Source of the DNA: a virus
Reading direction: 5' to 3' (one strand)
IMG/VR virus record: IMGVR_UViG_3300049740_002256
Coordinates: 1-28,745 of that record
Length of the DNA stretch: 28,745 bases
How positions within the stretch are numbered: position 1 is the first letter of the stretch; the number at the start of each line of letters is the position of its first letter. Shown piece by piece: positions 1,161 through 24,103 of the stretch. The notes under the pieces are model-generated. The model made no database searches and was not told the DNA's origin. It was given only the letters and a program-made list of their open reading frames with translations. The translations under genes were made by a program, and so were the position numbers.

Positions 1161-1170
1161 ATATAAATAT
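1161..1170 (-). promoter_or_regulatory. Candidate late promoter, copy 1
   Basis: The minus strand reads ATATTTATAT, preceded by T and followed by A, 21 nt before the ATG at 1139. It is one of six identical 10-mers, all intergenic and upstream of minus-strand genes. Alone among the six, this copy also has a TTG 19 nt upstream of TATATTTA. Confidence 0.6.
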
Positions 1171-1173
1171 AGA

Positions 1174-2310
1174 TTAAGTATCGAAACGAACAATAAAGTT
1201 CATATCATAGTCTGGTAAATTCTTTATTGGTGTTGGTAGTTTTGCAACTGCAACCATATCACCAGCATCATCATATAATCCAATAGTACTTATGTAAGTT
1301 GTTATATAAGAACCTGTTGGGTCAATTGATGCTGAATCATAGTAATCATTCCAAGACCCACTAACACTAGTATCATATGAGCCTGAAAAAAATGGTGTTC
1401 TTTTTATATCATCCACTAATTTAATTTTTCGTACACCTGCTGGAAAAGCATTTCTTCTTTTAGTGATTGGATGATTTATTACTTTTCCTACTTTTACATC
1501 AACTGCAGATGGATTTTGTGAATAATTAAATTCACCAGCTTTTGATGTAACTAATATTTCGTTTTCATATATGGTTTTAGTACTTCTAAAACTCATTTCA
1601 TATTGAGTCATCGAAGGTATATTGTTAAAAACAACAAGTCCATCTCCATAGAAAATATTTCCATATTTTTGTATATCAATTTGAATGCCATCAAAATCTA
1701 ACTCAACAGGAAATGTTATTTGACCGGTTTCCAAATTTATTTGAGTTACAACAACCGAATCGGTATCAGTACCAAATGTTAGAATAGCTATTCCTGTTTC
1801 TAAATCAATTGAAGTAATTGTTCCAACGAATACATCTCCTTCATTATCTGTTATTGTTATAGTAGAAAGTTCTAAATTAATATCAGTAATTCCATATAAC
1901 GGAACATTAGATACTATATTACTTTTTCCATCATCTGAATATATAACTCCAGTATCTTTATCAGTAAAGAGTAAACTTTGTTTTTTTATACCCTCACCAT
2001 ACTTTGATTGAGGTAAACTTACTATTTGTAATGAACCACTCTCTCTTCTTTCAGTAGCTATATTAGCAAAGTTATCTATTGAACCAAATATTGTAAATGG
2101 ATTTGCGTTTTGATTATAATATTTAGATTTTATGGATTTGAAGAGGGTATGTGTGTAAATACCATTCTGTGTATTAAATGAAGCTGTATCAAAAAATCCT
2201 GATTCGTCTGAAGCAGATATTATTGGATAACTATCATTATCTACCGTCCATTCCTTGTAAACCTGAAATGGTCTTTTTGTTACACTTGCTTTAGGTATAT
2301 TCTTTAACAT
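1174..2310 (-). CDS. Virion structural protein, paralog of the 2390-3619 product
   Basis: A 378-residue protein starting at the ATG at 2310, which has a GAGGAGAAA ribosome-binding site. A longer in-frame start at 2358 is rejected because it falls inside the terminator hairpin. The C-terminal part matches that of the neighbouring 2390-3619 protein in order. Both have a GLVV/GLVI-N segment, an EFN[YF]S.NP motif, and near the end a [TY].[IS]T[IV]GL[YF][ND]DA..M[IV]AVAK motif followed by a charged beta-like tail. The middle is rich in Ile, Thr and Asp and looks beta-structured. No enzyme motif is seen. A tail or baseplate-associated structural role is inferred from the paralogy and the late-operon position. 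Confidence 0.75.
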   Translation of the reverse strand: MLKNIPKASVTKRPFQVYKEWTVDNDSYPIISASDESGFFDTASFNTQNGIYTHTLFKSIKSKYYNQNANPFTIFGSIDNFANIATERRESGSLQIVSLPQSKYGEGIKKQSLLFTDKDTGVIYSDDGKSNIVSNVPLYGITDINLELSTITITDNEGDVFVGTITSIDLETGIAILTFGTDTDSVVVTQINLETGQITFPVELDFDGIQIDIQKYGNIFYGDGLVVFNNIPSMTQYEMSFRSTKTIYENEILVTSKAGEFNYSQNPSAVDVKVGKVINHPITKRRNAFPAGVRKIKLVDDIKRTPFFSGSYDTSVSGSWNDYYDSASIDPTGSYITTYISTIGLYDDAGDMVAVAKLPTPIKNLPDYDMNFIVRFDT

Positions 2311-2328
2311 ATATAGCTTTTCTCCTCT

Positions 2329-2338
2329 ATATAAATAT
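2329..2338 (-). promoter_or_regulatory. Candidate late promoter, copy 2
   Basis: The minus strand reads ATATTTATAT 18 nt before the ATG at 2310. It lies just downstream of the terminator at 2347-2368, so the gene at 1174-2310 appears to be re-initiated after upstream transcription stops. This is the only copy preceded by C instead of T. Confidence 0.6.
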
Positions 2339-2346
2339 GTGGAAAC

Positions 2347-2368
2347 AAAAAACCCCACCGAAGTGGGG
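2347..2368 (-). terminator. Rho-independent terminator
   Basis: Read on the minus strand: CCCCAC, loop TTCG, GTGGGG, then six T. The 6-bp GC-rich stem closed by a stable UUCG-type tetraloop followed by a U-run is a textbook intrinsic terminator. It lies 21 nt after the stop of the 2390-3619 gene and closes the main structural block. Confidence 0.92.
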
Positions 2369-2389
2369 CTGTTTATAGATTAAGTTCTA

Positions 2390-3619
2390 TTAGAAATCAA
2401 GTTTTACTTTGATTAAGATTTCCTTATCAAATGATTTAGCAACTGGTTGAGATGTTTTAGCCACTGCAATCATTTCGTTTGCATCGTTAAATAAACCAAC
2501 AGTTGTAATAAATGTTCTAGGGTCTTTTTCAAAAGAAGGTTCTGTAAAACTTCCATCTGTTAAATTTGAAAAAGTTGGATTGTTAGAGAAGTTAAATTCT
2601 CTATTTGTTGCTCTTATAAAGTAATGTGAAGTAGAAACATTTTCTGTTCTTCTTGCTTCAAAATCTCCACCACCTGCGATAGCATTATGTAGTAAGAATT
2701 GATTTTTACCTTCATAAGCAACACCACTATAAAGTGATGAACCATCAACAGATGCACTATTTGCTGATGTTCCTATTAAGTTATGAAGTGCTACAGGGTT
2801 AAGAATTACTAAACCTTGGTCAGGATAAAATAATCCAAATCCTTGTCCGTTTGAAGCAGTTAATGAGTTAACTGTTGCTTCTGATTCAGTTCCTAAGTTT
2901 AATGAACCACTACACACATTAAATACTCTACCAGCTTTACCAACTGTATCTGAGAATTTCTTTCCACTATCATCAATCAACGTAGAGATTCCATTAGAAC
3001 CACTAATCTTCAATGACCAGTTTCCTGCATCCATTTTCTCTTTGTATCTGGCACGTGATACATTGATTACATAGATATCATCGGAATCATGTGTTCCAGC
3101 TTCAGAAGATGAATAGAAAGTAAACTTAGAATCATCTTGGTCTAATAATATAGATTTATACTGAGCATATGTTGCTTTTGTTGCTAATGTAGAAGAATCT
3201 GAGTTAGAAAGTGATACAGAACCACTAGCCAATCTATGACCATATGAAACAGCATATTGTACAGCTGAAGTTGAATCAGTTGCTGGGTCTGTATTATATA
3301 CATTTAGGTAGTAGTTTGAACTAGCTGCTGTTGCCTGTGTAGATGATGTAAAGAAAGTTGATAAACTTCCAGTATCTCCACTCCACAATCCAGTAGTTAC
3401 AACTTCAACCTTACCTGTAATTTGGTCGAATTCTCCAAATCTTTTGTAGATGCCTCTGGCGATTCCTCCACCAGTTGCTCCTAACTTATCACCACCAGTT
3501 AAATACTGATTGATAATTTTTGCTAAATCTTCAGAAGCTATGTTACCAGTTGCACTAGATAAATAATTACCCAATTCGGTGGTTAAATTACTTCCTGCTT
3601 GTCCGTCTATTTGTGCCAT
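2390..3619 (-). CDS. Virion structural protein (tail/fibre-associated)
   Basis: A 409-residue protein rich in Ser, Thr, Asn and Gly, a composition usual for phage tail appendage proteins. The N-terminal region (about residues 1-60) starts MAQIDGQAGSN and is followed by a long beta-like body. The C-terminal third is paralogous to the 1174-2310 product, sharing the EFNFSNNP motif and the T[VI]GL[FY]NDA..MIAVAK motif about 30 residues from the end. The ATG at 3619 has an AGGAT-type ribosome-binding site and lies 20 nt after the preceding stop, so the two genes are co-transcribed. The terminator at 2347-2368 follows. No catalytic motif is visible; the exact virion location is unknown. Confidence 0.75.
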   Translation of the reverse strand: MAQIDGQAGSNLTTELGNYLSSATGNIASEDLAKIINQYLTGGDKLGATGGGIARGIYKRFGEFDQITGKVEVVTTGLWSGDTGSLSTFFTSSTQATAASSNYYLNVYNTDPATDSTSAVQYAVSYGHRLASGSVSLSNSDSSTLATKATYAQYKSILLDQDDSKFTFYSSSEAGTHDSDDIYVINVSRARYKEKMDAGNWSLKISGSNGISTLIDDSGKKFSDTVGKAGRVFNVCSGSLNLGTESEATVNSLTASNGQGFGLFYPDQGLVILNPVALHNLIGTSANSASVDGSSLYSGVAYEGKNQFLLHNAIAGGGDFEARRTENVSTSHYFIRATNREFNFSNNPTFSNLTDGSFTEPSFEKDPRTFITTVGLFNDANEMIAVAKTSQPVAKSFDKEILIKVKLDF

Positions 3620-3638
3620 TTTTTATTTATCCTATGTT

Positions 3639-4262
3639 TTATGTTGGTTGTATATAAGTTACTGTTACTGGAATAGTTTGTGAACCTCCTGTTTCGTTAC
3701 CATATACAGTTATCGTTGTTGAAATATTTGATGTAATTTGTGGATTTGGTATAAATACAAAATCTTGTCCTGTTTCAATAGCTGCAGTTGTTGTAATCTC
3801 TTCTCCTAAGAAAGATGGAACAGCTGCTCTTCTAGCTCCTCTACCTACAATAGTACCTGCATTCTTATTAGAAAGAATAATAGTATATCCAGACCTTAAA
3901 TTACCACTTGGTGAAGTAGTTGGTGATAACTGTACTTTACCTGAGTTTTGGTTTACACTTATTGAAGGGATACCAAACTCTACTTTAGGAATTCTTGTAG
4001 TATTCTTTGGTAAAGTTACCAATTTATATCTCAATACTTGAGTTTCATCTGGTGAAGCTTCAGTAATTGGAATAGCTTTGATAGCGGCATCATAATATGC
4101 ACTTCCTTTTGGATGTGCTGGTTCGTAAAGGGTATAATCTATTTCATCATCACCCAAAGCGAACTTTGTGATGTTTAAACCATCACCAGCTGCTAACTTC
4201 TCTCTACCCTTCTTTGTAAGAATTGCATCTACTGTGATTTCTGTGTTATCTAAATAAGCCAT
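3639..4262 (-). CDS. Conserved phage virion protein
   Basis: A 207-residue protein. Its N-terminus reads MAYLDNTEITVDAILTKKGR, then a LAAGDGLNITKFALGDDEIDY-like stretch (written in part). This 'diverse LTKKGRE.LA.G.....FALGDDEIDY' type of N-terminus is familiar from structural proteins of T4-like marine phages, recalled and not searched. The rest is Thr, Ser and Pro rich and beta-like. The ATG at 4262 has an AAGGAA ribosome-binding site and is the first gene after the late promoter motif at 4293-4302. It probably shares a transcript with 2390-3619. A baseplate or tail role is inferred from position only. Confidence 0.72.
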   Translation of the reverse strand: MAYLDNTEITVDAILTKKGREKLAAGDGLNITKFALGDDEIDYTLYEPAHPKGSAYYDAAIKAIPITEASPDETQVLRYKLVTLPKNTTRIPKVEFGIPSISVNQNSGKVQLSPTTSPSGNLRSGYTIILSNKNAGTIVGRGARRAAVPSFLGEEITTTAAIETGQDFVFIPNPQITSNISTTITVYGNETGGSQTIPVTVTYIQPT

Positions 4263-4292
4263 AATTTAAATTCCTTGTTAATGTTATTCAAT

Positions 4293-4302
4293 ATATAAAT
4301 AT
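4293..4302 (-). promoter_or_regulatory. Candidate late promoter, copy 3
   Basis: The minus strand reads ATATTTATAT 30 nt before the ATG at 4262, in the 82-bp gap after the giant tail gene. No TTG is found at the -33 position. Confidence 0.6.
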
Positions 4303-4344
4303 AAGCATTTCGTAAAATTAAATAATTAAATCAATTTTATAAAA

Positions 4345-7300
4345 TTAATCAACCTCCAATATAGGTTCTCCACTACCTCTTCCTGTATCAGAAACTCTAA
4401 GAGTATTCGGATTAGTACTAAATGTTTGAATAGGTGATGTTCCATCTAAAGTAGTTGATGCTGTTTGTTTTGAGCCTTTAAAGAACGAATTCTCCATACC
4501 ACTTGTCAAATCCCCAGTGTTTCTATAATGTGATGGGAAGTATCCATTTAGTGGAGTAGCTGAAACTATATTAGTTCCACTTGGTGCTGATGTTTCATTT
4601 CCATCTGAACCAGTGAATGGTAATATAGTAACTTTGTTTTTATAAAAAGTTTGAGATACAAATTCTCTTCCTCTTGAAGAATCATTTGAATCTATATTTT
4701 GAGGTATATCTTGTGTATAAGATTCCTTTACTAAAAATACTTTTACTCTTTCTTGTACTATGTTATTATTTTTATCCAACTTAGTTCGTACAGAATTACC
4801 ATTATCTGCATACAAACCAACTCCCATTATAGAAATAGAATCAGGGTCACTTCCTACTTGTTCAAAAGCACCTGCTTTATATGAACCTTCTAAGGCTCCT
4901 GTAAATTCACAATCAATAGAAAGTTCTAATCCAGAAGCTTCACCAATTAAATTTAATTTAGTATCGGTATCAATTCTACCTACATATCCAATATTACTAC
5001 CTATTAGTTGTGTACTTTCTTGATTATCTATATTAGCTTCAAATCTTGCACTTTCACCAGTTAGTATAGTATCATTGGATGCTGTTAAGATTCCAAGATA
5101 TTGGTCATTAGTTGAGTTTACTCCCAACTCAACATTTATTTTAGATTCATAATCTTTCTTAAATGCAGTTGATGGTTTCCATTTTGTTTTACTTCTTTCC
5201 AACATATGTGGTTGGATTAACAATCCACTTGAAACTTTAGCTCTTGCTGGAACTAATGATTCTAATACATCAAATAATGATTTATCAATATATCTTACAA
5301 GTTGAATGTATTCGTAAATATTTAAAGAATATCTATCAAAATAATAATTTCTTAAAGTTTTTAGTTCACCATATTCATCAGAAAACTCATCAGATGGGTC
5401 ACCTATATAATTATCAACATTAAACCCACCAAGAGATTTTATTATATCCATGTTAATCTCTTTAACAGGTGAGAAAAACAATCCTAGTTTATCAGAATCA
5501 AGAGGAGCATTATCAAATGATTTTTTAGTTGCTCTAGTTCTATATGATAATTCAGTTATTTTTTCTTGGGTTTCAAATCGTATTTTATTACCCAATCCAT
5601 TACCAGTAGATGGTACATCTGCAGTTACAGTTCTATCATACGATGTGTAATTATATGGATATGAAATAATAGATTCAAAATTTGTTGCTTCTGAACCTGT
5701 ACAATATGTTGTTATCAATGCAACATTTTTAATATCAGTATCAAGTCCTCTGTTCTTAGGATATTCGAAATCATGTCTTAAAATCAAATCAGTAGTTGAT
5801 GCTGATATATGATTACCATCTATAGCATCAGGTAATAAAGTGTGATTATCTATTCTTGATTCAGATAAAGGAGTTCTCCATAATCGAACTTCATCAATTG
5901 ATGCTGTTAAAGTACTTCCACCAATTTTTAATTCACTACCACTAGTCCATCCACTTATACCAGGAACAATTAAACTTGAACTTACATTTGTTCGTAATCT
6001 TTCATTAAATCCTTCTTTAGCATAAACAGTAAATACATCATTTCCACCAGTAGATTCTTTTTGAACAACTATCTGAGAATATTCTTCATTATAGAAAGAG
6101 CCACTATCAGTTGATGATGTGTATAAATTTCCACTACCACTTACTCTAAGTTCAACATAAGCAAGAGAGCCAGTATCTTTGATTAAATGAAGTGACCACT
6201 CAGAACCACTAATAAGTTCTTGGTCTTGTCTTTGGTCTGTATTTACTCTTAATTCAATACAATTTGGATAATCTGTACTATGTGTATTTGAAAATTGTTT
6301 CCATGGTACATCAATCGATGAAGAACCACTTATGTTTATAGATGCCGTTCTATCTTCAAATGTAAATTTAGTTGTACCACTTTGTGTTGGGTCTTTAGGA
6401 CCACCAAATTCCATTACAGTTAATAATGAAGCAGGAATACCATAACAACTTAATGCTGCTGATATTGCTCTTTTTGTACCTTTATGTTTATTTAGATATG
6501 GTAAGTTATTTAATAATCTCCTCCAAACTTCATTCTGTCTATCTTTACCACTCATTGATGATACCTCAGTACCATCCGAATGTTTACCAAATGCATATTC
6601 CCAAAGGAATTGAGATTTAACTCCCATATCAGCATTCCAACCAAGAGATTCCAACATATGATAAACTAAATCATTTGCAATACCAATATCTTTTCTGTGT
6701 TCAAGTTTTTTAGTTTTTTCTAAACCTCTAATATGAGCCCAAATAGTATCAAAGTGTTGACCTACCATATCAAAGAATAAAATAAACTCAGAATTACTTA
6801 CATCATCCATTACATGAGCTGGTAAGTTTGATGATAAACGTGAGGTATTGTTTGAGTCAAATTCTTGAGCAGAATAAACAATTCCATTGAACCATTGAGT
6901 TACAGTAGAATCAGTTGAAGATGATAATTCATTCAACCCAGCACCTGGATAAGTATCTCCACTTAAAGATGATGAAGTATATAAGAATTTTTCAAATGCA
7001 TCAAAACCATTTTTAACTTCAGTACTTTTTAGTAATTGTTTATTAGCCTCATTTAATACAGAAACAGAACCAGTCCATTCGGTTGTTCCACTTCCAGATG
7101 TTAATAAAGTATATTTGTTATCATAAGCTTCTACAAGTTGTACTTTATAGAAAAAGTTTCTAACTCTTTCTTCAGCTGATGAATGTCTAATAAATTCTGG
7201 CCAATTATATTCGGTTATACCTGATTTCTCAAGATATCCACCCGTACCACTTTCTTTAACAACAGATGATTGAGTTATAAACTCTATATCTAAGTTATTT

Positions 7301-9183
7301 AAAGATAGATTACTTGCTGATACAAATTCGTTGATAATATCAGTAGAGGTAGCTGAACCACTTGATACCAAATCATCTAATATTTGATACCCAATATCAT
7401 CATTTACTTCTAAATCAAAATTTGGTAATAGAGGAGTACATGCATTGATAACATCATCAACAATAACGATTTGGTCAATTAATGGTACAGATTGTAGTTT
7501 AGAAATCCAAACCTTATCGTTTGGTGATAATGTTCTTGGAAGAGGTTCGTATAATTTTAATACGATAGATTTTTCAACATTTTTTCTAATTCTTCTATTT
7601 GTTTCGCTATCAATAAATTCATCAGATAAAGTGGTATCATCAATACCCCATGTACCTATAAGTTTATTATCAGCATCACCAAGATGTAAGTAGTGAGTTA
7701 GGAATGGTGAAGTAAATTCATCAAATCCTCTTCTATCCAATTGTTTTGCAAATACTTTTCTAACATCACTTATAACGTTAGCTCTTCTTAATTTTAAATC
7801 TCCCTTATCAAACGTAATTGTAATTCGTTCTTTTTTACCATCAGTTACAACATCACCTTCTGTATTGTAAGGTACAAGTATAAGTTTTAAAGCTGTTATA
7901 TCTCTATTCTCATCTAAGTTGCCACGAGATTTTTTAATAATATCTCTAACATTAAATTGAGCACTACCAGCATTTGAATATTTTCCTAAGTATGTTTCAT
8001 TACTTACCTTACCAGCATATATGTAAACATAGTTTGTGTTGATAGATTGCCAAGATATATTAAAGGGTACATTGAATCCTGTAAAATCTTTCCCTTTAAT
8101 ATTCTGAGGATAGTTGATATGTGTGATATCTGGACCAGGTATGTATGCTTTACTATTAACAGTAATAACAACCTTTTCTAAATCACCACTTCCACCTCTC
8201 TTAGAAACTGGTTGGAAATAAGCAGTGTATTGTCCTAATCCTGCATCAAAATCTTGTTGAGTCAAAGTTACAGTACCACTAGTTGGCAATGTTCTTTTTG
8301 TTTTACCTAAACTATATACAACAGAATCCGAGTATCTTGATGTGTAGTTTAATTTTATTGGTTGAGGGTTTGATATATTAAATACAGCTGAATCAATATC
8401 TACTTTTAATGTAGGAGTGGTAGCCTCTATTTTAATTTCATTCTTTTCAGCAACTACTACAATATCATTTTGACCTGGTAATAAATCAAATCTATTATTT
8501 GTTCCTTTTTTTCTATTAGTTCCTGCAGTTGATTTTAAATCATAGACAACCTCATATGTAAAATCATTTACATTACCTTTACCAAAAAACTCTATATAAG
8601 GTGTTGGGTCTGTTTCTTGTTTATCTAATTCAAAAACTACAATATCATCATCATCTAGTACAAATCCTGTTTGTCCAAAGTTAGTTCTCCAAGCTATAGA
8701 ATTATCACTAGGTACATCACCAATTATTCTTACTTTATAAAATTCAGGTGGTTCGGGGTCTTCTACTGCAATATCTTCTAAATTAAAACCTAAATTAAAT
8801 GATATTAATTTTGTTTGTATTGCACTTAAGTCTGATAACGTTCTGTTACCTCGTTTTGAAAGATTATCCGATGGACTTTCTACCCACTTACCATCAACCT
8901 TTCGTTCTATCTTAAGGTCATAATACTTGGTAGTTAAATTTCCAATTGGAGCAATTAAATCTTTGGTAGGTTTTATATCACCTTTAGTTCCACCAAAAGG
9001 TGGTATTGGACTTTCTCCAAGTGATGGTTTACGGATTGGTATAAAATCACTCCTACCGCCACCGCCACCTCTAGGATTCCTACTAGGCAAGAATCTCCCG
9101 TCTTCAGCGAAATCATCTTGGAATCTTCCATCGTTATCACCGAACTCATCAAAAAATAAATCATCTGGTCTTCTTCTTGCCAT
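4345..9183 (-). CDS. Giant tail/baseplate protein with LamG-like domain
   Basis: A 1612-residue protein and the largest product in the window. It starts MARRRPDD, with an Asp/Phe-rich segment and a five-Gly linker near residues 38-45. Residues about 80-480 look like stacked beta-sandwich domains. Around 880-925 is a stretch with WRRLLNNLPYL, then KGTKRAI and a CYGIP motif, a pattern seen in tail proteins of the P2 gpI / phage tail-I type. Residues about 945-1145 resemble a concanavalin A/LamG-type lectin fold, ending with the typical IDEVRLWRTPLSE segment. The C-terminal 450 residues include LVPARAKVSSG and a Ser/Thr-rich tail. A structural and carbohydrate-contacting role at the tail tip is inferred. 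The start ATG at 9183 lies 25 nt after the preceding gene. Confidence 0.8.
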   Translation of the reverse strand: MARRRPDDLFFDEFGDNDGRFQDDFAEDGRFLPSRNPRGGGGGRSDFIPIRKPSLGESPIPPFGGTKGDIKPTKDLIAPIGNLTTKYYDLKIERKVDGKWVESPSDNLSKRGNRTLSDLSAIQTKLISFNLGFNLEDIAVEDPEPPEFYKVRIIGDVPSDNSIAWRTNFGQTGFVLDDDDIVVFELDKQETDPTPYIEFFGKGNVNDFTYEVVYDLKSTAGTNRKKGTNNRFDLLPGQNDIVVVAEKNEIKIEATTPTLKVDIDSAVFNISNPQPIKLNYTSRYSDSVVYSLGKTKRTLPTSGTVTLTQQDFDAGLGQYTAYFQPVSKRGGSGDLEKVVITVNSKAYIPGPDITHINYPQNIKGKDFTGFNVPFNISWQSINTNYVYIYAGKVSNETYLGKYSNAGSAQFNVRDIIKKSRGNLDENRDITALKLILVPYNTEGDVVTDGKKERITITFDKGDLKLRRANVISDVRKVFAKQLDRRGFDEFTSPFLTHYLHLGDADNKLIGTWGIDDTTLSDEFIDSETNRRIRKNVEKSIVLKLYEPLPRTLSPNDKVWISKLQSVPLIDQIVIVDDVINACTPLLPNFDLEVNDDIGYQILDDLVSSGSATSTDIINEFVSASNLSLNNLDIEFITQSSVVKESGTGGYLEKSGITEYNWPEFIRHSSAEERVRNFFYKVQLVEAYDNKYTLLTSGSGTTEWTGSVSVLNEANKQLLKSTEVKNGFDAFEKFLYTSSSLSGDTYPGAGLNELSSSTDSTVTQWFNGIVYSAQEFDSNNTSRLSSNLPAHVMDDVSNSEFILFFDMVGQHFDTIWAHIRGLEKTKKLEHRKDIGIANDLVYHMLESLGWNADMGVKSQFLWEYAFGKHSDGTEVSSMSGKDRQNEVWRRLLNNLPYLNKHKGTKRAISAALSCYGIPASLLTVMEFGGPKDPTQSGTTKFTFEDRTASINISGSSSIDVPWKQFSNTHSTDYPNCIELRVNTDQRQDQELISGSEWSLHLIKDTGSLAYVELRVSGSGNLYTSSTDSGSFYNEEYSQIVVQKESTGGNDVFTVYAKEGFNERLRTNVSSSLIVPGISGWTSGSELKIGGSTLTASIDEVRLWRTPLSESRIDNHTLLPDAIDGNHISASTTDLILRHDFEYPKNRGLDTDIKNVALITTYCTGSEATNFESIISYPYNYTSYDRTVTADVPSTGNGLGNKIRFETQEKITELSYRTRATKKSFDNAPLDSDKLGLFFSPVKEINMDIIKSLGGFNVDNYIGDPSDEFSDEYGELKTLRNYYFDRYSLNIYEYIQLVRYIDKSLFDVLESLVPARAKVSSGLLIQPHMLERSKTKWKPSTAFKKDYESKINVELGVNSTNDQYLGILTASNDTILTGESARFEANIDNQESTQLIGSNIGYVGRIDTDTKLNLIGEASGLELSIDCEFTGALEGSYKAGAFEQVGSDPDSISIMGVGLYADNGNSVRTKLDKNNNIVQERVKVFLVKESYTQDIPQNIDSNDSSRGREFVSQTFYKNKVTILPFTGSDGNETSAPSGTNIVSATPLNGYFPSHYRNTGDLTSGMENSFFKGSKQTASTTLDGTSPIQTFSTNPNTLRVSDTGRGSGEPILEVD

Positions 9184-9208
9184 TTATATTATCCTAGTTT
9201 AACTCTTA

Positions 9209-10129
9209 TTAAAACATATTAAAATTTTGTCTATCTCTATCTGAGAATCCACCATCATTGTTTCCGTATCCACCAAATCTACTATCTCTATTTAAATCAT
9301 CAAAATCATTAACCGATTCTCCTCGGCCTCCACCTCCGCCACCTCGTGAACCTCCTCCAGCTGGTCGGAATCCTCCACCTCGTGAACCCCCTCCACCTCG
9401 TGGTGGTATTGGGTCTGGTTTAACTTCTATTGGTGGTGTAGGGTCTGGTAGTGGAATAAAGTTATCTTTTATTACATCCGATATTGGTTTAATTTCAGTT
9501 GTTAATGTTCTCTGAACTGTACTAATTCTATATTCTTCTAACACCGTATAACCAGCCTTCTTTACTGTAATTATTTTTGGAGTAAGTAATTCTTTTTCTG
9601 TAAAATTTAAAACACCAGGTGTGTTTCCATTTTCAACACCATTTACAAGAATAGAAGCTGGGTTATTATTAACTCCACTTCCTACTAACCTTACGTTTAC
9701 CTTTACTGGTGCATTATAATCATTAACAACAGGTACTGGTGTTGGTGCAGGATATCTACACTTACCATTATCAAATGTTGCTTTTGGATTAAAGTTCAAA
9801 GCCGTCCTATCCATACATCCACCAACGATTGGTTGAATTGTTGGACCTTCTTCGATAGGCTTTGGTGGATTTAATTCCTCAATTATTGGGTCAGGAAGTA
9901 TTGGGTCAGGCTTAGGAATTATTGGGTCTGGTGGTGGTGGTATCGGTCTTGGTGGTGGTGGTGGATTTAGAGTTCCTCCTCCGCCTCCTCCGCCTCCGCC
10001 TCGTATGAAAACCTCCATACCATCTTCATTATTTCCATAAGGCGAATCTTGATAACCACCGAAGTTATCTTCGTACTGGTCATGTCTACTTCTTCCGTCA
10101 TCAAATGAAAAATCTTGTCTTCTAGCCAT
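9209..10129 (-). CDS. Gly/Pro-rich tail protein with PEGA-like domain and one Cys repeat
   Basis: A 306-residue mosaic. Residues 1-40 are Asp/Phe/Tyr rich after a MARR start, as in the giant protein downstream. A nine-Gly run and a proline-rich linker with repeated PDPI units follow. Residues 104-126 hold a GCMDRTALNFN...C repeat. About 140-215 is PEGA-like: it includes ASILVNGVENGNTPG and later VKKAGY. The C-terminal 70 residues are Gly/Arg rich (RGGG units). PEGA domains are small surface-exposed beta domains; the Cys repeat is typical of flavobacterial surface proteins. It is the first gene after the late promoter motif at 10144-10153. A role as a flexible tail or surface-exposed component is inferred. 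Confidence 0.72.
   Translation of the reverse strand: MARRQDFSFDDGRSRHDQYEDNFGGYQDSPYGNNEDGMEVFIRGGGGGGGGGTLNPPPPPRPIPPPPDPIIPKPDPILPDPIIEELNPPKPIEEGPTIQPIVGGCMDRTALNFNPKATFDNGKCRYPAPTPVPVVNDYNAPVKVNVRLVGSGVNNNPASILVNGVENGNTPGVLNFTEKELLTPKIITVKKAGYTVLEEYRISTVQRTLTTEIKPISDVIKDNFIPLPDPTPPIEVKPDPIPPRGGGGSRGGGFRPAGGGSRGGGGGGRGESVNDFDDLNRDSRFGGYGNNDGGFSDRDRQNFNMF
9752..9820 (-). repeat. GCxDxxAxN[YF]N...C repeat, unit 4
   Basis: Residues 104-126 of the 9209-10129 product: GCMDRTALNFN, then PKATFDNGKCRY. The same 23-residue pattern occurs three times in the neighbouring 10170-12371 product. Confidence 0.85.
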
Positions 10130-10143
10130 TGTTAATATCCTTT

Positions 10144-10153
10144 ATATAAATAT
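10144..10153 (-). promoter_or_regulatory. Candidate late promoter, copy 4
   Basis: The minus strand reads ATATTTATAT only 14 nt before the ATG at 10129, with AAAGGA immediately downstream as the ribosome-binding site. Such a short leader puts the predicted transcript start almost at the ribosome-binding site. Confidence 0.6.
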
Positions 10154-10169
10154 ACTCGTTTATAAAACA

Positions 10170-12371: not shown

Positions 12372-12377
12372 AATATA

Positions 12378-13736: not shown

Positions 13737-13737
13737 T

Positions 13738-14796
13738 CTATACCTCTACTGTAAAAGTTAAATCTTTCTCACCAAAATACTCAATAACTCCATCCCTTAC
13801 TGTTTTAATTTCTATATAGTAATCTCTGTTGGATTCAAAGTTAGTTAAGTTTAATTTAAAATAATTACCATTTGCATCACAACTAACCTTAGTGAAATCA
13901 TCATTAAATGGTACTACTACTTCTTCTGTTATAATATCTTTTATTTGATAGTAAGTAGTTGGTGGTAAATATTTAACATCAGTATAAGCATATGTGTTTG
14001 AATATGTTTTTAAAGGATATTTTTCCCTACCAAATACTCGTATCGTTGGAATGTTTCCTAACTTATATCTCGCTTTTAATCTTTTAAACGTTACATGAAT
14101 ATCATCAGCGGTAAGTTCTGTTAAAGAACCAGTAGAGAATGAAGAATCATCCCAACCAATTCTTAATTTAGGTTGATATATTGTATTTGTTTCTTTACCA
14201 AAAAACTTTAATTGTCCGTAATCTGTTGTATCGTTTTCTTTAGAAGAAGCGTGTTTTATAATCCAACCTTCGTTTGGAAGTGAACCATTAATCCAACTAT
14301 TTATCGAATCAATTACATCCATTTCAATATCAGATGTTTGATATGAAAATGATTGAGATGCAGAAGAACCTGTGTACCAAGTTCCACCACTTCCGTTAAA
14401 CGAACCAGTAGTTCCACTTGAATACTCACCAACTAACCACTTACTTGTTGTTTTGTTATTCCAAGAAACACCATCCGATGAAATCTCATCAAATCGTGTA
14501 CCGATTCCCATATCCCATGATTGTGAAACAGGATATGCGTAAATTGTATAATCAATTGGTATTTCTGATGATTCATATTCCTTTAGTATTAAATCAGCAG
14601 AACTCATTGTAACTTCTCCACTAGCAATAGATTGTGAAAGTGGTGTAGTTTCAAACTTTATTAATGTTCTTGCGGTATCTTTTAGATTTCCGTAGAAAAT
14701 CTTAGACACTTCAAGAGCCTCATCTAAACCAGTATTTTGAGTTGGCTGTTGTAAGTAAATTGATGAATCTTTAGATGATGTTAAAAAGTAATACAT
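13738..14796 (-). CDS. Structural protein with DNRLRE-like beta domain
   Basis: A 352-residue protein. The first 220 residues resemble DNRLRE-type carbohydrate-binding beta-sandwiches of extracellular proteins. They have a short N-terminal strand with SSKDSSIYLQQ, then a LIKFETTPL strand, SADLILKEYE, a YPVSQSWDMGIGTRFD loop, an INSWINGSLPNEGW segment and a final PKLRIGW. The remaining 130 residues look like a second beta domain. The start ATG overlaps the stop of the gp6-like gene by one base (TAATG), so the two are tightly coupled. A baseplate-attached sugar-contacting or adaptor role is inferred. The domain assignment rests on strand pattern and needs a profile search. Confidence 0.65.
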   Translation of the reverse strand: MYYFLTSSKDSSIYLQQPTQNTGLDEALEVSKIFYGNLKDTARTLIKFETTPLSQSIASGEVTMSSADLILKEYESSEIPIDYTIYAYPVSQSWDMGIGTRFDEISSDGVSWNNKTTSKWLVGEYSSGTTGSFNGSGGTWYTGSSASQSFSYQTSDIEMDVIDSINSWINGSLPNEGWIIKHASSKENDTTDYGQLKFFGKETNTIYQPKLRIGWDDSSFSTGSLTELTADDIHVTFKRLKARYKLGNIPTIRVFGREKYPLKTYSNTYAYTDVKYLPPTTYYQIKDIITEEVVVPFNDDFTKVSCDANGNYFKLNLTNFESNRDYYIEIKTVRDGVIEYFGEKDLTFTVEV

Positions 14797-16814
14797 TATA
14801 CAACCCTCCCCTTTATATCTTTATTAGGAAACTTCAATTCAAATATAGAAGGGTCTACCGATGGATATACCATCTTACCCTTTGTTGCTCCATCAATATC
14901 ATATGAATTTGAAGAGTAGGTTCCTAAACACTTATTAGTTATTTGACACTTTGGTACAGATGATACACCCTCTATACCTGCTAATAATATTTCAACTTCC
15001 GAAATGTTGATTGGCATATTAAATGTCCAATTATCTATGTTAAAATATTCTTTTAATTCTGTAATACATTTTGTAATAACTTCTCTTTTATTATACCCAC
15101 CATAAACTCTTACTTCAAAATCAACTCCAATATTAATAATGAATCCATCTATAATATTAACACCATCTGTTAACATTCTATATTCACCTAGATATGTTTT
15201 TAAATTTTCCTTAACAGCTCTGTTTAATGTTGATAAATCTTTGTTAGAGTTATATCCCAATACATACAAGTTTATTGCAAATGGATTATTCTTTTCACCA
15301 GGATTATTTTTCTTTCCACTTAAAAAGTTTCGCAATCCATCTTTTATATCTTCCTCTGATAGATTTTTCTTATTCATATTCTGAACAAGTCCAGCAAATT
15401 CATTTAATGTATCTGGATTTTTCAAAATAGAAGAAGGAGAGTTATTATCTAATTCACCATCTGGTGCACAATATGCTTTTGCTATACCACCGAACTTAGG
15501 TGGTAATGATAATGCTCTTACTTGATAATCTTTTCTTGTTACAGCTCTGTTCTGTGAACCAAACATAGCTAATGAATTTTCTCTAATCTCATCGATAGTT
15601 TCTGCACCCCTACCTCCAGTTGCTGGTTCTTCATTATCAACCCCAACTGAAGCTTTCATTTGGTTATACAATCCTACATCGTTTTGAGAAAAAGTTTTAG
15701 TATCATCATCAAATTCAATTCTTCTAATTGAAGTTAATTCACCTTTAGATGTATTAGATTTAACACCACCTCCAACTAAATAACTTATGGTAAACTTACC
15801 AGTAGGTGCCTGACCATATGATTGTGTTTTTAAGAAATTAGATGGGTCAAATGATTCACTTAATCTATCTATTGATGAATTTAAACCTAGTCCTACATTT
15901 TTAAAATTAGGAACAAGTGTTTCATCATTAGTAGAAGTACCTCCACCAAATATAACTGATGTTGTATTATCCTCATTTATAGTAGTGGTAAATCTTCGTG
16001 ATGTTTTCTGTACTCGTAATATACTAGATACAGAATCTTTAAATTGTGCTAAATCTTTATCAGTTTGTTCTGATGTTGGGTAATCAACATAAACCATCTC
16101 TTGTGCAAGATAAGGAACTTGATACCATTTGTTTCCATTTGAATCTCTTACATCATAAACATCAATTACATTTTTATCAGCAAGTTGTACTTTTGAAAAA
16201 TTAACAGGAGTAGAACCAAAATCAAATGTTATGGTTTTTAATTCTGCAGATATAGCGTTTATATATTTTTTAATTAAGTATTGTGTTGGTTCGTTTGTAG
16301 ATTGATTTCTTTGGTAAACAGTAATTTCTCTATCAGCATCTTCATTAAAATCTAATAATTCAGTTGTTCTAAATTTAGTATTTGATTTCGATGATTCGAT
16401 TATCATACCTTCTTTGATTCTTAAGTAATAATCAGAATCTGGCTTCACATCAGCACCCATGCCTGTAGCAGGTACTAATTGATATACACTCATTTTAACG
16501 ATTGCTGGTGATGTTACCTTTGGTGTGTATCCTAGATATTTTGCAAGAGCTATTACGTTCTGTTTATCTTCAGCATACAACATTAGAGATTCTTTTAGGG
16601 AATCATCAATATAGTACGAAAGTATATCACCTACATAAGATGCCATTTCGATGAACATCATACCAGGAGATGATTCATTGAAATCAGAATAAGTCTTAGG
16701 AAAATAACTCTTAGAATATTCTATTAAATTTTTTCTGAAAGAGGCGAAGTCTTTACTTAGATACTTAACATCTCTTCCTTGATTTGATTTTCGTGTTACA
16801 CTATTTAACGCCAT
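14796..16814 (-). CDS. 6: Baseplate wedge protein, gp6-like (baseplate J family)
   Basis: A 672-residue protein, close to T4 gp6 (660). The N-terminus holds the family's hallmark: DFASFRKNLIEYSKSYFP followed by SPGMMFIEMASYVGDILSYY at about residues 24-68, then LAKYLGYTP. The middle contains the APTGKFTISYLVGGG-type segment, and the ETIDEIRENSLAMFGSQNRA and VTRKDYQVRAL segments (about 405-435) are typical of the baseplate J C-terminal part. gp6 dimers form the inner baseplate ring that joins wedges and relays the contraction signal. It lies 6 nt after the gp25-like gene, matching the conserved gp25-gp6 order of T4-like phages. Confidence 0.92.
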   Translation of the reverse strand: MALNSVTRKSNQGRDVKYLSKDFASFRKNLIEYSKSYFPKTYSDFNESSPGMMFIEMASYVGDILSYYIDDSLKESLMLYAEDKQNVIALAKYLGYTPKVTSPAIVKMSVYQLVPATGMGADVKPDSDYYLRIKEGMIIESSKSNTKFRTTELLDFNEDADREITVYQRNQSTNEPTQYLIKKYINAISAELKTITFDFGSTPVNFSKVQLADKNVIDVYDVRDSNGNKWYQVPYLAQEMVYVDYPTSEQTDKDLAQFKDSVSSILRVQKTSRRFTTTINEDNTTSVIFGGGTSTNDETLVPNFKNVGLGLNSSIDRLSESFDPSNFLKTQSYGQAPTGKFTISYLVGGGVKSNTSKGELTSIRRIEFDDDTKTFSQNDVGLYNQMKASVGVDNEEPATGGRGAETIDEIRENSLAMFGSQNRAVTRKDYQVRALSLPPKFGGIAKAYCAPDGELDNNSPSSILKNPDTLNEFAGLVQNMNKKNLSEEDIKDGLRNFLSGKKNNPGEKNNPFAINLYVLGYNSNKDLSTLNRAVKENLKTYLGEYRMLTDGVNIIDGFIINIGVDFEVRVYGGYNKREVITKCITELKEYFNIDNWTFNMPINISEVEILLAGIEGVSSVPKCQITNKCLGTYSSNSYDIDGATKGKMVYPSVDPSIFELKFPNKDIKGRVV

Positions 16815-16820
16815 CTTTTT

Positions 16821-17252
16821 TTATCCCTGTACTGTAAAAGTTACTTCTTGTAAATCAATCTGTTTACCAACTGTAAATTTGAGATGCAAGTTAACTTGAT
16901 TTTTATCTTTTAATTCATCCGTTATTTCAACTTCAATATCTTTTATGTTGATGTACGGCAACCAAAATCCTACATTCCTTGTTATGGTATCTTTTATTTT
17001 TTCTTCATATTGACCATCAATTGGTTCAAATAATAATCTTCGTAGTCCCGTACCAAACTCTGGTTGCATTATTCTCTCACCCTTTTTCGTGAGTAAAAGA
17101 TTTCTTAAATTAGCCTTAGCTTGGTCAAATGATGTAAATGTTTGAGCAAAAAATCCATTCTCCCCATTGGCCAATGGAAAATCTAATCCGTAAGCAAACG
17201 AATCAAAATCCTCAGTGTCCTTTACAACCTTTCTACCAACAACATAAGCCAT
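16821..17252 (-). CDS. 25: Baseplate wedge protein, gp25-like
   Basis: A 143-residue protein, similar in length to T4 gp25 (132), of the GPW/gp25 family. The central region LLLTKKGERIMQPEFGTGLR (about 52-71) followed by LLFEP is the family signature, and a later INIKDIEVEI strand also fits. gp25 is a small wedge protein that helps start sheath polymerisation. It starts at 17252 with ATG, 10 nt after the preceding stop, and is followed directly by the gp6-like gene. Confidence 0.93.
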   Translation of the reverse strand: MAYVVGRKVVKDTEDFDSFAYGLDFPLANGENGFFAQTFTSFDQAKANLRNLLLTKKGERIMQPEFGTGLRRLLFEPIDGQYEEKIKDTITRNVGFWLPYINIKDIEVEITDELKDKNQVNLHLKFTVGKQIDLQEVTFTVQG

Positions 17253-17262
17253 TTTTTATTTC

Positions 17263-17850
17263 CTATTTTTTAAACCTCTTTACAAGTTCAGAATTATCTC
17301 TGTTTAGTATTTTATCAAGACCAGGTAATCCTGTCTTAACTCCAAGACCTTGTTTACTCGGTCCTCTTGATACCTCACCATATCCCATTTTATGAGCCAT
17401 TTGAGTTCTTAATCCTCCAACTCCAGCTCCAGCTCCTTGAGAAGTAAACTCAACAGTTTTATCCATACTCTCTTGAATTGGTTGTTGTTGTGGTAGATTA
17501 TCTAATACTGATTTACCACCACCTGGTGTTCCTCCACTTGCTCTTTGTGCTTTTGTAAAAGGAGTTGTCATATTTAAAACCTCGTTTATAGATTTATTTT
17601 TAGAATATGTTTTCTTTGGTGTTGCTCGTTCTTGTTCCAATGCAAGTTCTACTTGTTCAAAAGGGTCTACCTCTTCACTAATGAATTGCGTTGAGGGAAC
17701 GGCTACACCCCCCTTCACCTCTGCTAATCTTTTATTTACTTCCTCTTCCAATATCTTTGGAAAAGTTTTAGATAAAAAACGTTCTTGTTGTTTGGCAGTT
17801 TCTACCTCAACAAGAGTCTTTATTACTTTTATTAATTGTTTGTTGTTCAT
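17263..17850 (-). CDS. Conserved phage hypothetical protein, virion-operon
   Basis: A 195-residue, hydrophilic protein. The N-terminal 45 residues are helical (MNNKQLIKVIKTLVEVETAK), and the middle is Gln/Pro/Gly rich and probably disordered. The C-terminus ends in a short basic helix (LVKRFKK). ATG at 17850 is preferred; an in-frame TTG two codons earlier is possible. It is the first gene after the late promoter motif at 17871-17880 and lies directly before gp25, where T4-like marine phages often have an uncharacterised gene of similar makeup. A chaperone, assembly or minor virion role is possible, but function is unknown. Confidence 0.7.
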   Translation of the reverse strand: MNNKQLIKVIKTLVEVETAKQQERFLSKTFPKILEEEVNKRLAEVKGGVAVPSTQFISEEVDPFEQVELALEQERATPKKTYSKNKSINEVLNMTTPFTKAQRASGGTPGGGKSVLDNLPQQQPIQESMDKTVEFTSQGAGAGVGGLRTQMAHKMGYGEVSRGPSKQGLGVKTGLPGLDKILNRDNSELVKRFKK

Positions 17851-17870
17851 TTTCAATTCTGTTTATCTTA

Positions 17871-17880
17871 ATATAAATAT
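17871..17880 (-). promoter_or_regulatory. Candidate late promoter, copy 5
   Basis: The minus strand reads ATATTTATAT 20 nt before the ATG at 17850, inside the 52-bp gap after the 17903-18466 gene. No TTG lies near -33. Confidence 0.6.
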
Positions 17881-17902
17881 ATCTTTGTTGATTTTATAGT
17901 TT

Positions 17903-18466
17903 CTAACCAGGAACCAACCATCCTTTCCATGGTCTTACACCAGGTGCAGGTGGTACTACTGGAAATCCAGGGTAGTTTGATATTGTATCGTAATTACCTT
18001 GAATCGATGGTAAATGTTTTTGAAACCCACCAACTAGTTTATTTAAAAAATCCATTGTATTAGTTGTTTGATTATCTGGTCCTGTTGGAATCCATTGACC
18101 TGGATTAGTAACATAAGCTGCGGTTGATGAAACATTTACTATTGCTCCTATCGCTGGTATAGGAGGTATTATTAATTGTAAGGTAGCACCCTGCCAATAC
18201 TTAATAGAAGCTTTACCAATTTCATCTACAAAGAAATGTAAACTTTCTTGTTTAGAAATATAACTTCTACAAACAGATACACAAGCTGATTCCATAGCTG
18301 CATTCTTTCCTACTGCAATTGGGCCCATATTACTTGTTTGTTTTCCTCGTTTAATAGCCTGGTCATACTCACTAGTTATTTTAGCTGACCAGTCTTCATA
18401 TGAACCTACTCCTGGTTGGTTGTTCATATACGAAAACATATTTGCTTTAAATAATGACCAAGACAT
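17903..18466 (-). CDS. Conserved virion-operon protein of unknown function
   Basis: A 187-residue protein. Residues 1-60 look helical and charged (MSWSLFKANMFSYMNN). The middle is hydrophobic and proline-rich (LQLIIPPIPAIGAIVNVS, about 95-112), and the C-terminus is a Pro/Gly-rich tail ending WKGWLVPG. It carries a Cys pair near 62-66 (CVSVC). The gene sits 3 nt downstream of the spike gene. A tail-tip or hub accessory function is plausible from position between the gp5-like and gp25-like genes. It is not identified further. Confidence 0.65.
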   Translation of the reverse strand: MSWSLFKANMFSYMNNQPGVGSYEDWSAKITSEYDQAIKRGKQTSNMGPIAVGKNAAMESACVSVCRSYISKQESLHFFVDEIGKASIKYWQGATLQLIIPPIPAIGAIVNVSSTAAYVTNPGQWIPTGPDNQTTNTMDFLNKLVGGFQKHLPSIQGNYDTISNYPGFPVVPPAPGVRPWKGWLVPG

Positions 18467-18469
18467 CTG

Positions 18470-19696
18470 TTACTCCGTAAAATTTAAAGTTGATAATATT
18501 GTATCTAATTTAGCTTTTATCGCATTGTAAGCTGGTGCGTTTACTGGTGGTGAAGATGGACCACATGGAGTTGGGTGAGTTTCTTTTGCTAACTCTGTTA
18601 AGATTTCTGCTAATATATCAATAAGAGTTTGTCCTCTACTTAATGGTTCAGCATTAGATTCTGTATTCAAATATATTTCACCACTACCACCTAAGAAATA
18701 CATATTATTATCATTAGTGGTTGTTCTATATTCTCCATTTAAATCTATTTCAGCACCAGCATTACCATTATCTATTGTAAGTTTACCATCCGAAATAAAT
18801 GAATAATCTCCTTTAGAAAAAAATATCATTTCCGAATCTTTAGAAGATATAATAATTCTACCACTATTAATTAGTATCTGGTCAGTTCCTTTTAATTCAT
18901 CAGGTGGAGTGTGATATACAGGCTCTGTATCGAATGGTTGGTCATCGGTACCTGGTGCGAAATCTAATTCATAATCTTCACTCGTTATTGCTATCGTTGA
19001 ACCATCCTCAACTACATCCTCTTCAGTAATCTCTAATTCTTTTAAATCTTCAATTGATTTTTCATTTTGTCTATTTCGTATAATAATAGTTGGTGAAAAT
19101 GAATTTTCATCATTATTGTATCCACTAAATCTAATTGATTGTCCAAATCTACTTTGAATTACCTTATCACCTTCATAGTATTTTAAAGGATTTATTTGTG
19201 TTGCTTCAAAGTATTCTCCAAATGTACCTGTTCTATCTCCATCACCATCCGAATTTGGTGTTCCTGTTTGAGATGTTTCTGAATAATCACCACCTCCTTG
19301 TTCTGTATTTTCTGTTGGGTATCCTTGTAATAAAGCATCTTCTTCAGAGTTACCTTTATTTATATCAGGATTGAAAATACGTTTGTAATGCATTTGACCA
19401 CCAAGGGGAAATAGTTGAACTACTTCTCCAATCAATGGAAGACCTTCCTCTATATCGTATGGTGGGTAACTTGGTATATCAGCTAAATCATAAGATGAAT
19501 CTTTTCGAGTAACAATTCTAGCAAAACCAAGTAAAAAATCTTTATCAGATAACTTATCTTCAGTTCCTTCTGGTAAGATAATAGTTTCAAATTCACTATC
19601 ATCAATATGGACATAAGATACTACACCTGTTAACGAAGGTGTTTTTGTTTTGTTATTTGAGAAAAACGCACTATTTGAAGTTTCTTTCCTACCCAT
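18470..19696 (-). CDS. 5: Baseplate hub/spike protein, gp5-like, without lysozyme domain
   Basis: A 408-residue protein. The N-terminal 120 residues look like an OB-fold, with FLLGFARIV and LPLIGEVVQLFPLGG. A Gly/Thr-rich linker follows, then a motif GDKVIQSRFGQSIRFSG (about 175-191) that is typical of spike beta-helix entry in the gp5/gpV family. The rest is repetitive beta structure (IIISSKDSEMIFFSKGDYSF), then a helical C-terminal segment. T4 gp5 is 575 residues with a lysozyme domain in the middle; no such domain is visible here. Host cell-wall digestion during entry must therefore lie elsewhere. The start overlaps the preceding gene by 8 nt. Confidence 0.8.
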   Translation of the reverse strand: MGRKETSNSAFFSNNKTKTPSLTGVVSYVHIDDSEFETIILPEGTEDKLSDKDFLLGFARIVTRKDSSYDLADIPSYPPYDIEEGLPLIGEVVQLFPLGGQMHYKRIFNPDINKGNSEEDALLQGYPTENTEQGGGDYSETSQTGTPNSDGDGDRTGTFGEYFEATQINPLKYYEGDKVIQSRFGQSIRFSGYNNDENSFSPTIIIRNRQNEKSIEDLKELEITEEDVVEDGSTIAITSEDYELDFAPGTDDQPFDTEPVYHTPPDELKGTDQILINSGRIIISSKDSEMIFFSKGDYSFISDGKLTIDNGNAGAEIDLNGEYRTTTNDNNMYFLGGSGEIYLNTESNAEPLSRGQTLIDILAEILTELAKETHPTPCGPSSPPVNAPAYNAIKAKLDTILSTLNFTE

Positions 19697-20108
19697 CTTT
19701 TGTACTTACTTTTTGTTTAAGTTCTTCGATTTCATTAGTGAGTTCATCAACCTTTACATCTTGTTCATCTGCTACTTGTGAAATGGTCTCATCTAATTGT
19801 TGTAGTAATTGCTCTTTTTCTTCATCAGAAAGAAATCCACTATCTCCCTCTGCTTTATGTTGAGCTCCTATAATTCTTTGTGCAATTGCTGCCATCTTGA
19901 TTAGTGAATCATCGTTCTTAACTGATGTATCTACTAAATCTTTTATGATTGGCCCAATTACTGCCATATCCCCAGCATGTCTAATTACCTTTTTCATTTC
20001 AGCAATTAGTTCTGAGATTCTTTGTTTCTTGTTTTGTTGATTATCATAGATATCTTTAAACAATCCACTAAGGTTCTTACCAGGAAATAATTCAAAATCT
20101 GTACTCAT
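19689..20108 (-). CDS. Conserved T4-like phage protein, baseplate operon head
   Basis: A 139-residue, acidic, mostly helical protein starting MSTDFELFPGKNLSGLFKDI. This type of N-terminus is familiar from an uncharacterised gene next to the spike gene in T4-like marine phages (recalled, not searched). The C-terminal 45 residues are a coiled coil rich in Glu, Gln and Leu. It is the first gene after the late promoter motif at 20129-20138 and overlaps the spike gene by 8 nt, so both are probably made together. A hub-assembly role is likely but unproven. Confidence 0.72.
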   Translation of the reverse strand: MSTDFELFPGKNLSGLFKDIYDNQQNKKQRISELIAEMKKVIRHAGDMAVIGPIIKDLVDTSVKNDDSLIKMAAIAQRIIGAQHKAEGDSGFLSDEEKEQLLQQLDETISQVADEQDVKVDELTNEIEELKQKVSTKDG

Positions 20109-20128
20109 GATTATACCATATTAGTTGT

Positions 20129-20138
20129 ATATAAATAT
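20129..20138 (-). promoter_or_regulatory. Candidate late promoter, copy 6
   Basis: The minus strand reads ATATTTATAT 20 nt before the ATG at 20108. It lies just downstream of a terminator (20147-20174), so the baseplate block seems to be transcribed independently of the holin-like gene. Confidence 0.6.
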
Positions 20139-20146
20139 AGTAAACG

Positions 20147-20174
20147 AAAAAACCTCACTTTTTAGGGTGAGGTT
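20147..20174 (-). terminator. Rho-independent terminator after the holin-like gene
   Basis: On the minus strand: AACCTCAC, an 8-nt loop, GTGAGGTT, then T-run (six T overlapping the stem end). It lies 36 nt after the stop of the 20211-20441 gene. Confidence 0.88.
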
Positions 20175-20210: not shown

Positions 20211-20441
20211 TTACTTCTTAATAATGTGGTACAGTACAAAAGCCCCTACAAGTCCTAACAGACCTTCAGCACTTAAACTTCCTAGAATGCCCATGATGTT
20301 ATCAACTACTGATACTTCTGGCCAGAAAGGAATGTTTGTACCTTTGAAGAGTACTTCAAGTACAACTCCTAAGGCAATGATGCTAATACCAATTTTTGTT
20401 AATTCTTCAGCCCAAGAGCCTATTTTTTTCAAAAATTCCAT
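20211..20441 (-). CDS. Small two-helix membrane protein, putative holin
   Basis: A 76-residue protein with two predicted membrane segments, about residues 16-34 (IGISIIALGVVLEVLF) and 48-72 (IMGILGSLSAEGLLGLVGAF), and a Lys-Lys C-terminus. Size and topology match class II holins, which form inner-membrane lesions to release the endolysin. A similar small membrane protein is widespread in marine T4-like phages. The ATG at 20441 has a strong AAAGGAGAA ribosome-binding site. The gene stands alone, between a structured intergenic region and its own terminator. A holin role is inferred from topology; another membrane function is possible. Confidence 0.7.
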   Translation of the reverse strand: MEFLKKIGSWAEELTKIGISIIALGVVLEVLFKGTNIPFWPEVSVVDNIMGILGSLSAEGLLGLVGAFVLYHIIKK

Positions 20442-20531
20442 ATTGTTCTCCTTTTGTTTTAATTAAATGTGAATAACTTTTCCATCTTGCAAAACTAAGG
20501 GATATCCACAAATAACTATGGTATATATGAT

Positions 20532-20556
20532 AAAAAAAAGTTCAATATATATTGAA
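20532..20556 (-). terminator. AT-rich terminator-like hairpin
   Basis: On the minus strand: TTCAATATATATTGAA (perfect palindrome) then C and eight T. The stem is all A-T apart from one pair, so it is weak. The tract may end a short transcript starting near 20590, or be an operator instead. Confidence 0.4.
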
Positions 20557-20600
20557 ACCCCAATTAAAGAAGTTTATTGGGTGTTTATATATTTATGTAC

Positions 20601-24055: not shown

Positions 24056-24087
24056 CAAATATACGAAAAAATTTTCATATATCCAAA
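24056..24087 (-). promoter_or_regulatory. Bacteroidota-type housekeeping promoter
   Basis: The minus strand reads TTTG (24087-24084), 20 nt, TATATTTG (24063-24056). This matches the Bacteroidota consensus TTTG (or TTG) with a roughly 17-23 nt spacer and TAnnTTTG at -7. The predicted start lies about 28 nt before the ATG at 24021. It would drive the lytic enzyme, the membrane protein, the gp55-like factor and the carbamoyltransferase. Confidence 0.78.
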
Positions 24088-24103
24088 TAAAATGATAAAA
24101 AAT

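Follow-up and report, generated by a model that had tools for sequence, protein, structure and literature searches.

The six copies of the short element ATATTTATAT found in a virus fragment from IMG/VR (record IMGVR_UViG_3300049740_002256) are very likely the -10-type elements of late promoters of the T4 kind, which would be read by a gp55-like factor acting on a Bacteroidota RNA polymerase. The window analyzed here is the whole fragment of 28,745 bases. Comparisons with related phages strongly support a late-promoter class in Bacteroidota phages that would combine a changed octamer with a variant gp55-like factor, and this class seems to be undescribed; a literature search for a late promoter or a gp55-like factor in T4-like phages of Bacteroidota found nothing, with most subscription journals and preprints lying outside its coverage. 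The sequence itself shows the box with its strand bias and placement, its conservation upstream of orthologous genes, a second promoter class, and the homology of the candidate factor to sigma region 2 and gp55.

The six exact copies lie at positions 1161, 2329, 4293, 10144, 17871 and 20129 on the minus strand, which holds nearly all plausible genes of the window, and the plus strand of the window contains none. Dinucleotide shuffles of the window gave an expectation of 0.69 copies, and none of 100 shuffles reached six. All six boxes are intergenic, with gaps of 14, 18, 20, 20, 21 and 30 nucleotides (nt) between box and ATG. The preliminary description of this DNA had reported six identical, intergenic minus-strand sites 14-30 nt before a start codon, and all positions and gaps were reproduced. 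Recounting also gave the figures it had listed for the surroundings of the box: T precedes and A follows it in five of six cases each, and TTG at -33 is missing from five of the six. The exception is the box at 1161, where a TTG at 1193 falls within the upstream coding sequence. When one mismatch was allowed, a scan restricted to the window found 17 sites against 17.5 expected; this is chance level, and the signal therefore sits in the exact box.

To place these boxes in a wider context, 80 related contigs were collected through the gp55-like gene and dereplicated to 48 loci, the window among them, which total 710 kb with 94% of the sequence in genes. Across these loci, TATATTTATA occurs at 114 sites, 92 of them upstream of a gene on the same strand and 7 between divergent genes, while 8 lie in genes, 1 lies upstream of an opposite-strand gene only and 6 lie elsewhere; for unannotated loci, these site classes rest on a simple caller that takes the longest open reading frame. 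One dinucleotide shuffle of the same loci yielded 18 sites in total. The enrichment beyond the window and the avoidance of genes, for which a test had been set beforehand in the preliminary description, were thus borne out by 99 of 114 sites. Furthermore, significance holds for each genome taken singly, in the window and in seven relatives that are long or complete, with p values from 1e-6 to 1e-30. De novo motif discovery by expectation-maximization on upstream regions recovered TATATTTATA from the window and from each of five long related contigs (G001-G005). The same procedure did not return the box in Flavobacterium phage immuto and Microcystis phage Mel-JY01, where A-rich 8-mer seeds drifted to poly-A-like leaders; simple 8-mer enrichment placed ATATTTAT and TATTTATA among the top 8-mers of both. 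In a single-substitution scan, changing one base abolished the upstream enrichment at most positions; the G variant of the early class described below is among the variants that kept it. A reversed-pattern control was uninformative, since reversing the box yields the same sequence offset by one position. A scan of viral contigs seeded with Mel-JY01 found no relatives.

Conservation at orthologous positions points in the same direction. Among non-redundant orthologous upstream regions, chosen without regard to the motif, ATATTTATA is kept in 39 of 40 for the gene behind the box at 17871 (the 17263 gene) and in 28 of 28 for the 19689 gene, and the flanks have diverged in both sets. Orthologues of three comparison genes that have no box in the window carry it in 0/41, 0/29 and 0/18 regions, and for the 20692 gene it is found in 11 of 44.

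The box is accompanied by a second, host-type promoter class. Early and replication genes carry the ordinary Bacteroidota promoter, whose TTG sits upstream of TATATTTG or TATATTTA at a fixed distance of 23 nt. Of the TATATTT boxes that immuto and G001-G005 have upstream of genes, only 3 of 71 TATATTTATA boxes have a TTG exactly 23 nt upstream, compared with 41 of 60 boxes that do not have the late ending (Fisher 1e-15). The late box has, by its definition, an A where the host consensus TAnnTTTG has G at -5, and the G variants make up the early class. Both classes occur in the window, where predicted host-type early promoters were located at 24056-24088 on the minus strand (TTTG-N20-TATATTTG, before the lysozyme-like gene 23407-24021) and at 25922-25952, also minus (TTG-N20-TATATTTG, before the nucleotidyltransferase-like gene 25430-25903). 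The early promoters of immuto (TTG/TATATTTAG type) end in TATATTTAGG, not in TATATTTG.

The two classes stand before different genes. In G002-G005, primase and phosphohydrolase genes have early-type promoters, and late boxes are found before baseplate, large tail, portal-adjacent and terminase-region genes. In immuto, late boxes precede the terminase, portal, sheath, tube, hub and tape measure genes and the lysis cassette. More specifically, 16 late sites of immuto fall inside virion blocks and 8 outside, compared with 0 early sites inside and 20 outside (Fisher p=2.7e-6), with sites assigned to genes by hand from positions and annotation and the block limits chosen from the annotation. The class proposed in the preliminary description, a late promoter lacking the -33 element, is therefore supported both by the near-absence of TTG at -23 (3/71 against 41/60) and by its position before virion genes, with replication genes served by host-type promoters. 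Its suggestion of a Bacteroidota host agrees with immuto, a Flavobacterium isolate with the same arrangement.

The recorded host of Mel-JY01 (PP395634.1, L089-L092) is cyanobacterial, and its early promoters are of the Bacteroidota type, with TTG at exactly -23 from TATATTT in 9 of 18 cases. Its late box stands before the portal, tail tube and other head and tail genes. The true host of this phage may be a Bacteroidota bacterium present in the Microcystis culture.

We considered whether the boxes are simply promoters of the host primary sigma factor, a variant of TAnnTTTG without the -33 element for which no phage factor would be needed. In the window clade, TATATTTA does agree with TAnnTTT, and in F. 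johnsoniae the -7 box is dominant and the -33 element weak (PMC6847099). However, T-12, A-11, T-8, T-7, T-6 and G-5 are near-invariant in F. johnsoniae promoters (PMC6847099), whereas the box has A at -5, followed by a conserved TA. In the immuto group, moreover, most boxes lack the TA at -12/-11 yet retain TATTTATA, and a separate TTG-bearing class exists in the same genomes. A further argument comes from the AT-rich Tenacibaculum phage pT24, whose host also belongs to the Bacteroidota: 100 kb of its genome were scanned and contain the host-type TATATTTG but no late box, so the box is not a by-product of AT content or host phylum. Together these points make a host promoter an unlikely explanation. 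They also bear on two statements of the preliminary description. The change from TAnnTTTG is not from T to A, as it had been put; it is the last base that changes, from G to A (TATATTTA). In addition, a derivation of the box from the host -7 box is probably wrong, given that the immuto group mostly lacks the 5' TA and that the core TATTTATA is closer to the T4 octamer TATAAATA. In pT24 itself (L219-L221), one protein matches the gp55-like model by fold, but no TATTTATA stands upstream of genes in the scanned part; any late promoter of this phage differs from the TATTTATA type.

Three known systems resemble this one most closely. In T4 and KVP40, late transcription uses TATAAATA with gp55, gp33 and gp45 (PMC7892883, PMC2984593). 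As in the phages studied here, the T4 late promoter consists of a -10-type octamer alone, without a conserved -35 element, and stands before virion genes, and the phage encodes a gp55-family sigma region 2 protein alongside T4-like virion genes. The core TATTTATA differs from TATAAATA only in its two central bases, AA being replaced by TT; further differences are an extra C-terminal helical domain in the gp55-like protein and the Bacteroidota origin of the host RNA polymerase. Upstream counts of TATAAATA to TATTTATA in the window clade are 0:6, 2:31, 3:17, 3:18, 2:11 and 1:11, and the T4 octamer is not enriched there, in contrast to the controls T4 (12 to 5) and Pelagibacter phage Mosig (3 to 0). 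The cyanophages S-PM2 and Syn9 use NATAAATA as late promoter (PMC2984593), again a short octamer before structural genes in gp55-encoding marine T4-like phages, but with a conserved central AAA rather than TTTA, in cyanobacterial hosts and with g33 and g45 homologues present. The Bacteroidota sigma-A promoter (TTTG or TAnnTTTG in F. johnsoniae, PMC6847099) shares TATATTT with the window clade, and its host-type copies stand before the early genes of the phages studied; the late boxes differ from it in having no TTG, in ending with A plus TA instead of G, and in losing the 5' TA in the immuto group.

Across 80 immuto-like contigs, the base before the core is C in 129 cases, A in 50, T in 3 and G in 2. 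Due to this predominance of C and A, the general box can be written [A/C]TATTTATA. In the immuto group, the host-type 5' TA is usually replaced, giving TCTATTTATA or ACTATTTATA. A and C are mixed before the core within single genomes, which made covariation of this base with the factor unusable as a line of evidence. A sequence logo of the window clade contains no strong upstream column besides residual homology.

The distance from the first T to the ATG has a smallest common value of 11-12 nt, above which it varies freely. This minimum with free variation above it fits a -10 element and excludes a ribosome-binding signal. Transcription starting 10-12 nt downstream of that T would suit this spacing, in which case some transcripts would be nearly leaderless. 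The spacing also bears on the idea that the box acts in RNA or as an operator, for instance in transcript processing, in transcript stability or as a repressor site. The partial dyad symmetry of ATATNNATAT would fit such a role. Against it, the strong strand bias excludes a symmetric operator, the variable spacing to the ATG excludes a ribosome-binding element, and an Rfam search gave no family match. Furthermore, several boxes lie directly after a terminator-like hairpin, where a new transcript is expected to begin: box 2329-2338 comes right after a hairpin and T run at 2347-2368, and box 20129-20138 after another at about 20146-20173. A function in RNA or as an operator is thus very improbable.

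The window encodes a candidate for the factor that would read the box, in keeping with the earlier proposal of a gp55-like factor in a T4-like phage. This putative late sigma factor (22405-23133, minus strand) is composed of a sigma region 2 fold at about residues 7-110 and a C-terminal helical domain at about residues 139-226, which is conserved and has no counterpart in T4 gp55. The protein alone gave no PHROG or Pfam match at default threshold. Across its family, 21 of 40 members have Sigma70_r2 as their best Pfam match (best E 0.006), and no region-4 match was found in Pfam. In immuto, the sole match to phrog_234 ("late sigma transcription factor") is the gp55-like gene (E=0.008). Aligned with hhalign against seven proteins of the T4 gp55 family, the first ~110 residues are collinear (90.5%, E=1.3e-6). 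A predicted model (predicted local distance difference test, pLDDT, 76) resembles T4 gp55 (7d7c_F; prob 0.96, root-mean-square deviation 4.3) as well as the sigma-like factor of a T4-like Klebsiella phage (prob 1.0); it replaced a poor first prediction from 24 close homologues (pLDDT 65) by using a more diverse alignment. The corresponding protein of immuto, gp118 (NC_055915.1, 78174-78872), is a gp55-like late sigma candidate annotated as "hypothetical protein".

Another factor could in principle read the box, be it a divergent RNA polymerase of the phage, some other phage sigma or an activator, with the gp55-like gene being incidental. Most genes of the box-bearing phages are unannotated, and motif and factor are linked by co-occurrence only. 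On the other side, no T7-type polymerase was found, in a search that had no positive control, and no further Pfam sigma region 2 was found, in a search that missed even the gp55-like proteins. All groups showing the box have the gp55-like gene, the loci having been collected through that same gene. On balance, we regard a different reader as quite improbable.

We infer that the box is a promoter with the gp55-like protein as its reader, and that the genes behind it are expressed late. In the mechanism we propose, the phage factor would join the host Bacteroidota RNA polymerase, and the resulting holoenzyme would open DNA at [A/C]TATTTATA with no need for a -33 element. Counted from the first T of TATTTATA, transcripts would begin about 10-12 nt downstream, and they would cross the baseplate, tail and head operons. 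Unmodified host sigma-A would serve the early and replication genes sooner, from promoters of the TTTG-N20-TATATTTG type.

Several observations weigh against a gp55-read late promoter. A minority of boxes, 8 of 24 in immuto, precede genes that do not look clearly late, although among these eight one stands at the head of an endolysin/holin cassette and another before a lectin-domain gene, and the timing of genes was judged from gene content. In the immuto group, many sites fall in unassigned or opposite-strand positions according to the crude gene caller. A similar factor is found in the 484-kb relative LR756508, yet the 100 kb examined contain no box. The homology to gp55 is remote, with the hhalign match spanning the N-terminal ~110 residues only, the Foldseek E-values against the PDB, at about 1, are weak, and the model reaches only moderate confidence (pLDDT 76). 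Finally, the gp45 clamp profile PF02916 matched 0 of 8 records, a profile that also missed Mel-JY01, which has clamp-loader genes.

In T4, gp33 supplies the flap contact for gp55 (PMC7892883). The extra C-terminal domain might, as a hypothesis, replace gp33 or sigma region 4. More tentatively, the gp55-like factor could be a self-sufficient late sigma, its C-terminal domain standing in at the flap for gp33 or sigma region 4; late transcription from a -10-only box would then proceed without gp33 or the gp45 clamp. We consider this doubtful. If true, it would be a design of late transcription not described for T4-like phages.

For the abundant and mostly uncultured T4-like phages of Bacteroidota, the two classes would provide a testable promoter grammar, host-type for early and TATTTATA for late genes. 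They point to an unannotated late sigma factor candidate in these phages, including the isolate immuto. Bacteroidota RNA polymerase has an unusual primary sigma factor and promoter, and this case illustrates a way in which the T4 late system may have been adapted to a different polymerase. The box could serve in annotating late operons of metagenomic contigs and, together with the early class, would help in host assignment.

Within the window, the claim that the sites head virion operons is well supported for some boxes, such as the one at 17871, and was drawn from neighbors or weak homology for the others. The predicted late promoter box at 17871-17880 (minus strand, like the other boxes and the two wedge genes; predicted start ~17867-17869) heads a baseplate operon comprising 17263-17850, 16821-17252 and 14796-16814 and continuing to 10170. 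In this operon, 16821-17252 encodes a gp25-like baseplate wedge protein (phrog_261, E=6e-21), and 14796-16814, a T4-like virion gene, encodes a gp6-like baseplate wedge protein (phrog_219, E=4e-21; 37% to the immuto baseplate wedge protein). The box at 1161-1170 (core TATTTATA at 1162-1169, predicted start ~1157-1159, chance TTG at -33) precedes gene 957-1139, and the box at 2329-2338 (predicted start ~2325-2327) precedes gene 1174-2310, which is tail-fibre-like by a weak phrog_381 match. Genes 3639-4262 and 2390-3619 follow the box at 4293-4302 (predicted start ~4289-4291), the former corresponding by gene order and similarity to immuto gp107 and to box-carrying genes of G002-G005. The box at 10144-10153 (predicted start ~10140-10142) precedes genes 9209-10129 and 4345-9183, and that at 20129-20138 (predicted start ~20125-20127) precedes gene 19689-20108 and the genes downstream. 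The window also contains metabolic genes for a carbamoyltransferase, a peptide deformylase and a thymidylate synthase.

Shine-Dalgarno-like sequences (AAAGGAG or GAGGAG) occur in the leaders 1140-1160, 2311-2328 and 10130-10143 and upstream of 20441; such sequences are normally missing from Bacteroidota mRNAs (PMC6847099). The leader 20442-20560 of the small membrane protein gene 20211-20441 contains about 90 nt that are strongly conserved in 21 dereplicated relatives, with the pattern CATAGTTATT ... GGATATCC / GGACATGTCC / GGACAGTCC ... GTTTTGnaAnATGGAAAAGTTATT ... AAAGGAG. An Rfam search of this leader gave no match. Its dyads change on both arms among the relatives, and it is possibly an RNA element or an operator.

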